NCBI RefSeq assembly: GCF_000712295.1
Contig: NZ_JMKI01000037.1
Coordinates: 1 to 64,000, forward strand
Direction: 5' to 3'
DNA from: Synergistes jonesii
Lineage (GTDB): Bacteria; Synergistota; Synergistia; Synergistales; Synergistaceae
Length of the DNA stretch: 64,000 nucleotides
The notes below the pieces were generated by a model. It searched no databases. It saw only the letters and a program-made list of their open reading frames with translations, and was not told where the DNA came from. Below, piece after piece: positions 20,552 through 25,528 of this stretch (position 1 is its first letter; every line of letters begins with the position of its first letter). The position numbers were made by a program, and so were the translations under genes.

Positions 20552-22291
20552 CTACCAACCGGCCGGCTTTTCTATACTTCCATAATGCTGATTTCTCTTT
20601 CTGATATAGCCGTCGAGGCTATAGCGGATTGCATCGACGCAATTATGGACAAGTATTCCGTTTGCAAAAAATTCGTGGCAATCCGCCACTGTAAGGTCAT
20701 AAACCTTACTTGCACAGCCGCCACTTGTAATAGTTTGCACACGACCTACTGCAAAATCGGACATTGCTATATTTGTTTGTTGTAAATTCCTTTCCGCAAA
20801 ACTCACAATTTTTGACAATATCGTCAATGTGATTATTCCGCCTCCATTGGCTTTTGCAGTTGTTACTGCAAAATCGGCTTTCGATATATTCGCTCTTGAC
20901 CTCTGACATATAAGCACCTCGTCTTCGGGGCATAAGTCCGCTATTGCGCAGAACCCGCGTTTTGTCCATACCTTATGCTCTTTTGTTCCTACTATAAAAT
21001 TGCCTTTATCCGTTGTTATTTTGTAAACTCGGCAATTATGGCCTGATGCGCCCGCCCAAAGCACGGGCTTATAGCCCCGACGTGTTAATACCTTATCGTT
21101 GGTAGTAATTTCTTCGATAGGCTTTTCGCCCTGTTCAGTCATGATAAGCGTTCCGGCAACAAGGCAATGATTATTCTTGTCTAACACGATAGGCAGGACA
21201 TCGCCGGTTTGGCTGTCCACCTTGTACGAATAGTGGTTGAATTCATCGATCGTATGCTTACAGCGCGGGTGAATGACTACCTTTTCAAATCCCTTGATGT
21301 GGGCGATGCCGTCTTCGACGCAACCCTGCCATTTTTTTGCCCCAGAGATGTTGAATCCCTGCTTTTTCATATAACTTATAGTTTCCGGTCGCGCCGCGTC
21401 CGCTTTGATAGGCCAGCTTCGCGCCGTATCTATGCTGTCGAAAAGCTGCGCCGTTTCATCAAGTTCTACGCCGATACCGTATGCTTCTCTGTCGATGTAA
21501 AGCTTTTTACCGTCTACAAAACACCGCACCAACGTAGTAGGGTCTTGAGCGAAGCCCCAGTCGGCCCCATGGAAAAAACGGACGTTTCGCGGCGTGTCGA
21601 AAGGCTCGACGACATATTTACCGCGGAAAATGATGGCATCCGAGATTCGACGCACCTCGCCCTCCCAGATATGGAGATAGGCTTCATAATCGACTCTCTT
21701 GAGATATTCCATCTCCTGCCGCAACACGTCTGGAAACCACGGATTTTCTGACCAATTGACCTTATGGACCGCTGCGTTTGGCGGCGTATGTACGATAAAA
21801 CGCTGATATGTCGGGTCGTCTTCGTCCAGTGGGTTAAAGGATAGCCATATCTCCGAGTCTTTTTCGCGCACCGTAGGAATCAACACGCTCCATGACTCTT
21901 CGGATACGGATTGAGCCTCCTCGACCCAGCACACATTTACACCTTCGGTCGATTTCACTTCCTGCACATTAAATCGCAGCCCCTTGAAAATGAACTCCGT
22001 TCCATTTATGCCCGAAATCGCATTTTTTGTTATCTTGTATCTGCTTTCCAATTTCAGCGCATATATTTGTTCAACGAGCAGCTTGTGCACGGAATCGGCA
22101 ATGGAGTGCTGTATCTCACGGGCGCAAAGTACGCGGATTTTTCTATTTGCCCCCATGGCGACGAGGGCGCGCGCTATGGCCCAACTTTTCCCACCGCCGC
22201 GGCCTCCCCAGTAAACCTTATATCGGAAAGGGCGGAACAGGTCTTCATACACGGGGTGAAATTTGATTGTTACTCGGGGGCTCTTAGGCAT
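20552..22291 (-). CDS. terL: Terminase large subunit interrupted by an intein (579 aa precursor)
   Basis: It is a PBSX-type packaging ATPase/nuclease. Walker A GGRGGGKS is at residues 29-36, Walker B with catalytic Glu (WVEEA) at about 122-126, and the nuclease starts at [11 protein letters not shown]. Residues 376-550 are an intein placed between NNH and [11 protein letters not shown], inside the last nuclease motif; the conserved Asp of that motif is in the C-extein. Splicing would give a 404-aa enzyme of normal length. Without splicing the nuclease should be dead. The start closely follows the small terminase gene. Confidence 0.93.
20642..21166 (-). other. Mini-intein in TerL (175 aa)
   Basis: It is a class 1 splicing element: Cys1 with the [13 protein letters not shown] block, a T-x-x-H block (GTKEH, intein residues 61-64), a C-terminal block [16 protein letters not shown], and a final His-Asn followed by Cys+1. 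No LAGLIDADG or HNH endonuclease is present in the splicing frame. The middle (intein residues ~90-145) is unlike normal Hint sequence and overlaps a zinc-finger frame read one base later. Confidence 0.92.
20706..20909 (-). CDS. Zinc-finger frame nested in the intein (67 aa), gene or endonuclease relic
   Basis: Read one base off the intein frame, this stretch encodes paired finger motifs: RFCSNNC, then CEFCGKEF followed by RFCSRSC. These are typical of the DNA-binding part of HNH-type homing endonucleases. An ATG at 20909 has GAGGTG six bases upstream, so it could be translated on its own. The first finger lacks its CxxC half and no HNH core follows, which rather suggests a decayed endonuclease kept out of frame by two compensating indels. 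Confidence 0.55.
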
Positions 22292-22797: not shown

Positions 22798-23670
22798 CTA
22801 TGTGCCTATCTCATAATCAGCAATCATGTATTCAATAGCCCTGCTGACAGCAAAATCGCCCGTTAATCTCTCGTGCGCGATAAACTCTTGTACCTTTCTG
22901 AATACAACGTCCTTTTGCTCTCTCGAAATAAACGGGATTATCGTTTTCGTCAGCGCGCCCGACAGGTGCGCCGCGATTATAAGAAACAGCAGAATCAATT
23001 CTTCTTCGTCTTCCGGCAGCGCCGCATTCAATTCCGTCAGCACTTTTTGCAGCTTTACGGCGTTGTCTGCCTTGCCTTTGATTTTCTTCACCATCTGCTT
23101 GATAGCGTCTATCGCCGACTTCGGGCCGGTTATCAGCAATGAGTCCTGCTCTTCAACCGACAACGTATCGACATAAGCCGCTTCGTTTGTCGCAGCTTCG
23201 CCGGATAACAGGTCTTCAAGGTTGGGGATATTCGCCAGACTCGCCAGCATATCAATATCCTCGCCTGCCGCAACTAATTCGCGCAGTTGAGCCTCGACCA
23301 TGTCTTCGTTGTATGCTTTGACGTTGCGGTCATACGTGATGACGAACTCTTTGATCTCTTCCCATGTTTTTATGTGCGATAAAACCTGCACGGGGACCTT
23401 GCCGTGCCCGCGCTTGGTCATTTCTTCGTAGCGGGTGTTGCCGTCAAGGATAATAAATTCACCCTCCAAATCAGGGTGGGGCGCGACAAGAATCGGTGAG
23501 CACATGCCGAACTTGTCAAGGTTTGTATTTAACCCCTTCTTGCGGTCTGCCGAGAGCGGCTTCTTCGGGTTGTCAGGGTTTATATGCACTTCCGAAATCG
23601 GAAGGATGCGGACGTCGGGTATTGTCTCCGCATGAGCTATAAGCTTTTTCTTGATTGTCGCCTTGGCCAT
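22798..23670 (-). CDS. ParB/Srx-domain protein (290 aa)
   Basis: The N-terminal half is a ParB-like nucleotide-binding domain: 'ISEVHINPDNPKKP', then ILDGNTRYEEMTKRG with the core Gly-Asn-x-Arg (DGNxR) motif. The C-terminal ~130 residues are helical and unassigned. In phages such proteins sit beside DNA-modification or packaging genes. GAGGTAGTTTG precedes the ATG at 23670. It follows a terminator and starts the terminase block. Confidence 0.8.
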   Translation of the reverse strand: MAKATIKKKLIAHAETIPDVRILPISEVHINPDNPKKPLSADRKKGLNTNLDKFGMCSPILVAPHPDLEGEFIILDGNTRYEEMTKRGHGKVPVQVLSHIKTWEEIKEFVITYDRNVKAYNEDMVEAQLRELVAAGEDIDMLASLANIPNLEDLLSGEAATNEAAYVDTLSVEEQDSLLITGPKSAIDAIKQMVKKIKGKADNAVKLQKVLTELNAALPEDEEELILLFLIIAAHLSGALTKTIIPFISREQKDVVFRKVQEFIAHERLTGDFAVSRAIEYMIADYEIGT

Positions 23671-23700
23671 CAAACTACCTCGCTATCCCCACAATAAATA

Positions 23701-23854: not shown

Positions 23855-23882
23855 ACAGGGCCGGCAATTCAGCCGGCCCTGT
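23855..23882. terminator. Perfect 11-bp hairpin at the end of the radical SAM gene
   Basis: ACAGGGCCGGC and GCCGGCCCTGT pair perfectly around a 6-base loop. No T run follows on the minus strand, so it is more likely an RNA-processing or stability element than a terminator. Confidence 0.45.
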
Positions 23883-25324
23883 CAAAGATGTACATAATCG
23901 CTTCGTTTTCTCATGTATGTACTCAAATCGTGCTCCCGTTCCCCGTGATGCCGAGTGGACGGGTCGTATACATAGATACGATCTCCTGAACTGTTCGTCG
24001 GATAAGTGTTCGTATCGAAATCCGTCAAAATCTGCCCCATTGCTGCATACCACAGGAAATTGGGACAATCTTCGGGGTGATTGAAGAAATACCGCAGTAT
24101 CTCATATAGCGGCGCTTCATCACCCAGCCGCGCGCGGAACTCTCTATGGTCCGCAACCTGTTTCGCGTTGAACGGCACCCAGAACGGGGCCGTCTTTAAT
24201 ATTGGATTTTCAAGCCCAATTTCTTTAAAAAACTCTTCGACCGGGCGCCACGAAAACGCCACGGGGCGCGCGCCCTTCGTGACCTCGAAATCTGGCCCGT
24301 ACACAGGCGCTCCGTTCAGACTGGACTCGTGTATCCGGCGGACAAAATCGAAATTTACCGTGAACAATTTCGCCGCCTCGCCAAACCATGCGGGGTCTGC
24401 GCATTCGGGGAACATCGCTCTGTCGCCGAAATACGAATCCCAATACGGCGACGGGAAAAAGTCCAGCCCGTTATATTCCGTTGCGGCGTACCACGCTTTG
24501 AGCCGTTTGACGTGGAACATCGGAAAGACGTTCGCCTTTTGGACGTATCCTCTGTATGCAGACGCAATCTCTTCCGCCTGTCTGCCGGAAAAGTGCAACT
24601 GCTCCAACCAGACGCCGCGCGCGCCGGCCGCCTTGACCGCCACGCAGTATGCATCCGCGTCTCCGGCCCAATCCTCGAGATACGGGTTGCAGGCGACGAC
24701 TACGGGAATACCCCTATCCGACAGTTTGCGAACGAGCTCGAGGCGCGCCGTCGAAACGGGCGCGCCGGGCTCTATTTTGCGCGAGACATCGTCGTCCAGC
24801 GTAGTCAACGTGATGTAGACCGCGTCTTTTCCCGGGACGATAAGGTCGGCGTAGCGGTCGAATTCTTCCACGAGCACATTCCCCTTCGTCTGAATCCAAA
24901 GGGGAAGTCCGCGCTTCTTCGCGTACTTCAAAAACGCCTCCGTGCAGCGATATATTTTCTCTTCGCGCATGAACGGGTCCGTTGTGTTCGAAAAACAAAC
25001 CGGATACTTATTGCGCAAGAAATACCCGACTGGGTTTTTCGCGTCGGACATCGCATTCTCCATTCCCGCGATAACCTTTTCGATTGGATTTTTCTCGTGC
25101 GGCTTACGCCCCGCCGCGGCCCTATTGAGGTTGGAGAAGCAATAAAAGCATTGATTGCTGCACACTCCATAGATACTGACCTCTACGGGGAACGGCGTTT
25201 GCGGCCATATGCCGTAGAGCTTCACGGGGTTGTCGTTGAAATCGAACGAAAACAATGCACAAATCACCTCCCATTTTTCAAATTTTTGTTTGGGGTTTTG
25301 GTTTTTGGGAAAATTGCGTAGCAT
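23882..25324 (-). CDS. Phage-encoded radical SAM protein (480 aa)
   Basis: It has the [4Fe-4S] motif C-x3-C-x2-C in GVCSNQCFYCFSN, followed by a TIM-barrel-like sequence ('CFSNTTDPF', 'IQTKGNVLVEEFDRYAD', 'VYITLTTLDD') similar to the spore-photoproduct-lyase-like radical SAM group. The reaction is unknown. ATG 25324 follows GAGGT by 7 bases; the frame stays open upstream through a 12-bp repeat tract but has no ribosome site there. It lies between a small gene and ParB, so nucleic-acid modification or repair, or peptide modification, are possible roles. Confidence 0.8.
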   Translation of the reverse strand: MLRNFPKNQNPKQKFEKWEVICALFSFDFNDNPVKLYGIWPQTPFPVEVSIYGVCSNQCFYCFSNLNRAAAGRKPHEKNPIEKVIAGMENAMSDAKNPVGYFLRNKYPVCFSNTTDPFMREEKIYRCTEAFLKYAKKRGLPLWIQTKGNVLVEEFDRYADLIVPGKDAVYITLTTLDDDVSRKIEPGAPVSTARLELVRKLSDRGIPVVVACNPYLEDWAGDADAYCVAVKAAGARGVWLEQLHFSGRQAEEIASAYRGYVQKANVFPMFHVKRLKAWYAATEYNGLDFFPSPYWDSYFGDRAMFPECADPAWFGEAAKLFTVNFDFVRRIHESSLNGAPVYGPDFEVTKGARPVAFSWRPVEEFFKEIGLENPILKTAPFWVPFNAKQVADHREFRARLGDEAPLYEILRYFFNHPEDCPNFLWYAAMGQILTDFDTNTYPTNSSGDRIYVYDPSTRHHGEREHDLSTYMRKRSDYVHL

Positions 25325-25455
25325 AGTTATACCTCGAACACAAATGTTACGCAAGGGGCCAAAAAAAGGGCGAAAAAAAGGGCAAAAAAAAGTATAAAAA
25401 TGTGCGCCTTTTTCTGCACCTTTTTGCGCACCTTTTTGTGCGCAAAAAACGCACC
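25325..25455 (-). repeat. Two adjacent 12-bp tandem repeat arrays before the radical SAM gene
   Basis: On the minus strand a ~12-bp unit GTGCGCAAAAAG occurs about 3-4 times, followed by about 3 copies of CCCTTTTTTTCG-like units. If read in the gene's frame they would encode QKGA-type and FFxP-type 4-residue repeats. They may affect expression or vary in length. Confidence 0.7.
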
Positions 25456-25528
25456 CCTCCATCGGTCTCATCAGTGCCGGCCCCACCGGCAGACGCCCCG
25501 AGGGGCGTTTCGACCTATCCCCCCCTGC

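Follow-up and report, generated by a model that had tools for sequence, protein, structure and literature searches.

The intein-interrupted terL gene of a Synergistes jonesii prophage, located in the 64,000-nucleotide stretch of contig NZ_JMKI01000037.1 that was analysed here (the window), raises the question of why zinc fingers are encoded within an intein in a reading frame other than the one that is read for splicing. The original prediction, made from the DNA letters, offered two answers: either two compensating indels had left an out-of-frame endonuclease relic that the intein tolerates, or a nested gene is translated independently. We consider it very probable that the intein is a mini-intein, the deletion remnant of an intein with a nested, out-of-frame HNH endonuclease gene, and that the history proposed below holds as a whole.

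The terL gene and its intein form a single 579-codon open reading frame (ORF), and the positions of all features are collected in Table 1. The intein is inserted in a conserved motif of the C-terminal nuclease domain of TerL (...LDKNNH/CVDAIRY, with the slash marking the insertion point). It carries the class 1 Hint signature, composed of C1, GTKEH (the block-B TxxH motif), a terminal HN, Cys+1, and the Hint fold, and the best match of its AlphaFold model (eleven sequences) among solved structures in the PDB was the gp41-1 intein (6qaz, E 3e-9). In this model the Hint fold looks intact, and the intein is predicted to splice. The model shows the nested segment, when read for splicing, as a loose disordered loop, with the exception of ∼15 codons at its 3′ end, where the first strand of the Hint C-terminal half (residues 138–152) overlaps the last finger in frame +2. 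According to the model, these codons are structurally used in both frames, as a Hint strand and as finger 2. The idea of an out-of-frame endonuclease relic that the intein tolerates was borne out. The prophage terminase gene is adjoined by a gene for a ParB_N-domain protein (22798–23673, minus strand), and a gene for a radical SAM protein lies nearby (23882–25486, minus strand).

Table 1. Features of the intein-interrupted terL gene and of the ORF nested in it (window coordinates).
Feature	Position	Strand	Evidence
TerL gene (PBSX-type large terminase, prophage), intein-interrupted	20552..22291	-	TIGR01547 E 4e-54; Pfam Terminase_3 and Terminase_3C
Intein, 175 aa, C1...HN175, C+1	20642..21166	-	TIGR01443, TIGR01445, PF14890; AlphaFold model
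Hint N-terminal half, residues 1–88, pLDDT ∼95	20903..21166	-	AlphaFold model
Splicing-frame linker, residues 91–135, mostly pLDDT <50; frame +2 here encodes most of the fingers	20762..20896	-	AlphaFold model
Hint C-terminal half, residues 138–175, pLDDT ∼95	20642..20755	-	Sequence and AlphaFold model
Remnant nested ORF, 67 aa and stop: start region, one half of finger 1 and all of finger 2, without HNH core	20706..20909	-	Frame +2; tblastn, profile, AlphaFold
GAGGTG, Shine-Dalgarno-like, 5 nt 5′ of the inner ATG at 20909; anti-SD duplex −7.2 kcal/mol	20915..20920	-	
RFCSNNC, C-terminal half of finger 1	20856..20876	-	Sequence and alignment
CEFCGKEF...FCSRSC, finger 2, four Cys, C-x2-C-x14-C-x3-C	20739..20807	-	Sequence, alignment, model

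Relative to the splicing frame, frame +2 is open from an ATG at 20969 to a stop codon at 20706–20708 (minus strand). The RFCSNNC and CEFCGKEF...RFCSRSC fingers, the inner ATG, and the GAGGTG just ahead of it were all found as the original prediction had described them, and a 67-codon +2 stretch within the open terL ORF agrees with its statement that both frames are open across ∼200 bases. The nested ORF contains one and a half FCS-type zinc fingers. A 14-base word that had been noticed in both finger halves is indeed present at 20747–20760 and 20864–20877 (minus strand), where it encodes the RFCS residues of the two fingers with the same codon spelling. Its interpretation as a deletion or insertion scar was rejected; it marks two equivalent RFCS codon runs. 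When the 67-aa peptide was used as a tblastn query, it matched the C-termini of phage HNH endonucleases (E 3e-11 to 4e-12), in agreement with the view that such fingers are typical of homing endonucleases, and some of these matches fall beneath genes that are annotated as terminase large subunit. The tblastn matches and the alignment identified the peptide as the FCS-finger C-terminus of this HNH_3 (I-HmuI-like) subgroup. It covers only positions 153–209 of the HNH profile, and the HNH catalytic core is absent. Searches of the finger ORF against Pfam and NCBIfam returned sub-threshold zinc-finger matches only. The AlphaFold model of the peptide (pLDDT 84.5) comprises helices and a hairpin around the cysteines, for which Foldseek detected weak zinc-finger similarity only (YacG, E 0.17). 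Over the remnant, the splicing frame of the window contains no stops, and none are expected after synonymous shuffling (57 codons, a length at which the comparison has no power). Because openness within the remnant alone is not significant, evidence for the use of two frames has to come from relatives.

Related loci were gathered by scans with HNH alignments and by a separate scan for which intein splicing regions were aligned, with the window intein as the lead sequence. At least ∼270 loci were obtained; the scans were pattern-limited, so the proportions given here describe the sample and not true frequencies. The profile HMMs were seeded from some loci of the group itself. Among 168 distinct contiguous related inteins (window included), the HNH protein, whole or in part, lies in phase +2 in 162 and in phase 0 or +1 in none. 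In the other six no HNH was detected by the profile, and one of these (L211) has a +2 finger according to the finger profile. Well over a hundred related viral inteins still encode the whole enzyme in frame +2. The same picture emerged from the subset found only by the intein query, in which 72 of 77 distinct inteins contain a nested HNH, 55 of them near full length. In three-frame translation, Acinetobacter phage Highwayman, Tetrasphaera phage TJE1, and a faecal phage each have a TerL intein with a +2 endonuclease that consists of an HNH core and two fingers, with both frames open, and the same nested arrangement is found in the viral contigs L001–L004 from the first intein scan. Complete HNH ORFs in this phase are present inside inteins of Highwayman, TJE1, MT838676, a Halobacterium plasmid, and a Rhodobacteraceae phage. 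In the Halobacterium plasmid (pGSL19_54.9, L308:460-2772), the gene with the intein and its complete nested HNH lies just 5′ of a phage portal gene and is annotated merely as ‘Hint domain-containing protein’; the nested arrangement therefore reaches archaeal elements. The complete nested relatives possess the HNH catalytic core (PF13392, HNH_3), and the HH-D-N-N-H motif is kept in 139 of 143 near-complete nested HNHs. With its endonuclease sequence in frame +2, both frames open, and a start at the end of the Hint N-terminal half, the window intein has the features of a remnant member of this nested group.

Remnants of several kinds occur among the relatives. In a natural pair of loci (L211 and L251) that are 87–88% identical around the deletion, one clean 489-bp deletion in L211 removes the HNH core and finger 1, and the ATG and finger 2 are retained. 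Since deletions that spare the splicing frame come in multiples of three, phase +2 is automatically preserved for the finger that survives. The layout of the window, with the start, Shine-Dalgarno (SD) sequence, ∼10 codons, and then finger 1 from RFCS onward, fits a deletion of the L211 type. Finger sequence is also kept in the partial remnants L209, L210, and L227, and in Brochothrix phage BL3, where the fingers lie within a split TerL; only L279 retains just the N-terminal end of the HNH. Among the complete relatives, the Hint domain nearest to that of the window intein is from L212 (∼59% identical). No close relative with the same deletion was found among 188 genomes of its phylum, so the history of the window copy is reconstructed from its cousins. 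Judged by its sequence, the window intein is probably a homing-dead mini-intein that has lost the HNH core, and its 67-aa finger peptide most likely represents a relic in decay that may still be translated. The alternative raised in the original prediction, a nested and independently translated gene, stands as a picture of the family, mostly with an ATG of its own, and does not extend to an active endonuclease in the window, where the copy is devoid of the HNH core.

A different fate for the peptide would be that of a small zinc-finger protein that is still translated and selected, for example as a DNA-binding remnant that acts at the terL site. Its start, SD sequence, and fingers are intact, its model is confident and zinc-finger-like, the C-terminal finger is the part that survives in all of the above remnants except L279, and six of the eight finger differences between L211 and L251 fall at HNH codon position 3. 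We nevertheless regard this as unlikely, since finger 1 of the window copy is cut in half, the start adjoins the Hint N-terminal half and has to persist for splicing regardless, and the L211/L251 differences include time before the deletion. Useful relatives with the same remnant, on which selection could be tested, were not found among the family, class, and phylum genomes.

The nested HNH frame appears to be equipped for initiation of its own. An ATG is located at the HNH start in 64% of the loci, compared with 5–15% at control positions or in control frames. Nested starts also show stronger SD pairing than the remaining ATGs in these loci (36% versus 10% at ≤ −5 kcal/mol, p 2e-9), although strong pairing is limited to about one-third of the nested starts; a textbook case is AAGGAGGTTACTATCATG in L110. 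In 95 of 119 loci, the HNH frame is closed by an in-frame stop within 20 codons upstream. All three observations speak against a programmed −1 frameshift from the intein frame, which would produce a fusion of the N-intein and HNH instead of a protein with its own start. Phase +2 corresponds to a −1 shift and is invariant, which would favor such a mechanism, yet we consider it improbable. The two compensating indels of the original prediction, by which the middle of an intein with a once in-frame endonuclease would have been shifted, have in their favor that an in-frame endonuclease domain is the textbook arrangement of inteins. However, no HNH was found in phase 0 in any of the 168 related inteins, many nested HNHs are intact with their own ATG, and all 162 inteins with an endonuclease have it in phase +2, so such indels are unneeded; the invariant phase leaves this scenario very little credence and in effect rules it out. 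Homologous inteins with a middle that matches in the splicing frame and with no finger in any frame, which the original prediction had named as its refutation, were not seen; the opposite was. Short alternative-frame ORFs are common, but a chance cysteine-rich reading of an unrelated frame is refuted by the tblastn matches to HNH endonucleases and by the phase shared by 162 inteins, and its probability is negligible.

In the family, both frames of the nested segment are under constraint. When codons were shuffled synonymously, with the HNH protein and codon use preserved, 186 stops were expected in the splicing frame of 85 complete nested loci, and none were observed. In the same frame of 54 free-standing or split homologues, 386 stops were observed and 385 were expected. 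The splicing frame has thus been purged of stops by selection only in those loci in which it must be read through. In each divergence bin, nested homologues share more residues in the HNH frame than they do when read for splicing (e.g. 43% versus 23% and 65% versus 39%). Their differences cluster at the third position of HNH codons, where the splicing codons have their second. In non-nested homologues, the frame that corresponds to the nested phase contains about one-third of the stops of the other forward alternative (7.2 versus 21.7 per gene), and this low stop load is a simple and possible reason for the phase bias. Across loci, the divergence of the HNH protein is more closely correlated with that of the N-extein flank (r 0.45) than with that of the Hint domain (r 0.25).

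The same endonuclease family also exists outside contiguous inteins. In Acinetobacter phage BP10 (L306), the HNH gene stands alone before terS, with 12 stops in its +1 frame, and terL is of ordinary length. The nested HNH of Highwayman (L006) is 51% identical to this free-standing protein. The TerL proteins of the two phages are only about one-third identical over their alignable part, so they are not a close pair, and we treat the comparison as a clue that an intein may have recruited a free-standing endonuclease. A split form was found in CL2, L014, L017, L024, BL3, and Vibrio 1.238, in which the N-terminal part of TerL with the Hint N-half is followed by the HNH gene or its remnant and then by a short ORF for the Hint C-half and the TerL C-terminus. 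The CL2 and BL3 deposits do not mention a split intein. Besides L014, L017, and L024, fractured terL genes were also seen in L010:96-2324, L005, and L307, and in fractured terL the reading frame of the small C-half ORF overlaps the end of the HNH gene.

The explanation that we favor, a deletion remnant of an intein with a nested HNH gene, draws on sequence, phase, homology, and the stop avoidance in relatives. The ancestor would have been a composite mobile element with two proteins written over each other. Its splicing frame would encode a Hint domain with a long loop, and the +2 frame of this loop a separate HNH endonuclease, with an HNH_3/I-HmuI-like core followed by two FCS zinc fingers. 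The enzyme would be translated from its own start codon, which in such elements is often preceded by a dedicated ribosome-binding site. From HNH and intein biology we infer that homing would be promoted by HNH cleavage of terL copies that lack the intein, and that the intein would restore TerL through protein splicing. The window copy would have lost its HNH core and one half of finger 1 through a deletion whose length is divisible by three, after which the start, ribosome-binding site, and fingers would have stayed out of frame and the splicing frame would have stayed open.

Beyond this locus, it is likely that these inteins form a large and apparently undescribed class of phage inteins, in which the homing endonuclease is a separate protein that is wholly overlapped in one fixed alternative frame, with ∼200 codons that serve two proteins under opposing constraints. 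Such inteins would decay by in-frame deletion to mini-inteins with out-of-frame fingers, and in their split relatives the endonuclease gene separates the two halves. No report of out-of-frame endonuclease genes inside inteins was found in the literature searched, which covered few subscription papers. The odd middle segments found in many phage TerL inteins would then not be junk but would mirror an endonuclease gene that overlaps them, which pipelines miss because nested genes are not called in annotation. One endonuclease family that occurs nested, free-standing, split, and deleted offers natural replicates with which both the cost of long overlaps between genes and their origin can be tested. 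Homing and splicing would be separated within a contiguous intein, and as a stand-alone protein the nuclease could act in trans or be swapped between inteins.

An endonuclease domain in frame is the usual intein arrangement (PMC11855218). Ordinary inteins and mini-inteins such as gp41-1 share the Hint fold, C1, TxxH, C-terminal HN, and C+1 with the window intein, and in ordinary inteins, as in the nested group, the endonuclease occupies its usual place between the two Hint halves. In the nested group, however, it is a separate, out-of-frame gene product and not a domain of the intein polypeptide. In the literature searched, out-of-frame HNH insertions were described only in methylases (PMC11855218, PMC12613952). 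The ShiLan domain is an out-of-frame HNH with zinc fingers in the third (+2) frame of a phage methylase; its domain order is finger-HNH-finger, an SD sequence is undetectable, and the authors' tests for an intein and for an intron were both negative, with no splicing element found (PMC11855218). We confirmed the +2 phase at the ShiLan locus (L311), which matches the present HNH profile weakly. In both systems, an HNH and fingers are hidden in frame +2 of a host gene that remains open in its own frame, but the host of the nested group is a genuine Hint intein in TerL, often with an SD sequence, and is distributed over far more lineages. The window copy further differs in the absence of the HNH core, and the out-of-frame HNH lies here in an intein, whereas the ShiLan insertion has no splicing domain. 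In profile comparison, the solved structure nearest by sequence to the nested HNH proteins is that of the HNH_3 endonuclease I-HmuI (1u3e, E 5e-5; PF13392). Unlike them, I-HmuI is intron-encoded and has other DNA-binding modules, and the window ORF is devoid of the HNH core that such enzymes share. Fractured genes, in which split inteins have a free-standing endonuclease between their halves, were reportedly described by Dassa et al. in 2009. The split relatives found here have the same order of TerL N-part, HNH gene, and C-part. In the window, the TerL and intein halves are not in separate ORFs but in a single one, and the intein, like those of the nested group, is contiguous, with an endonuclease that overlaps the halves instead of separating them.
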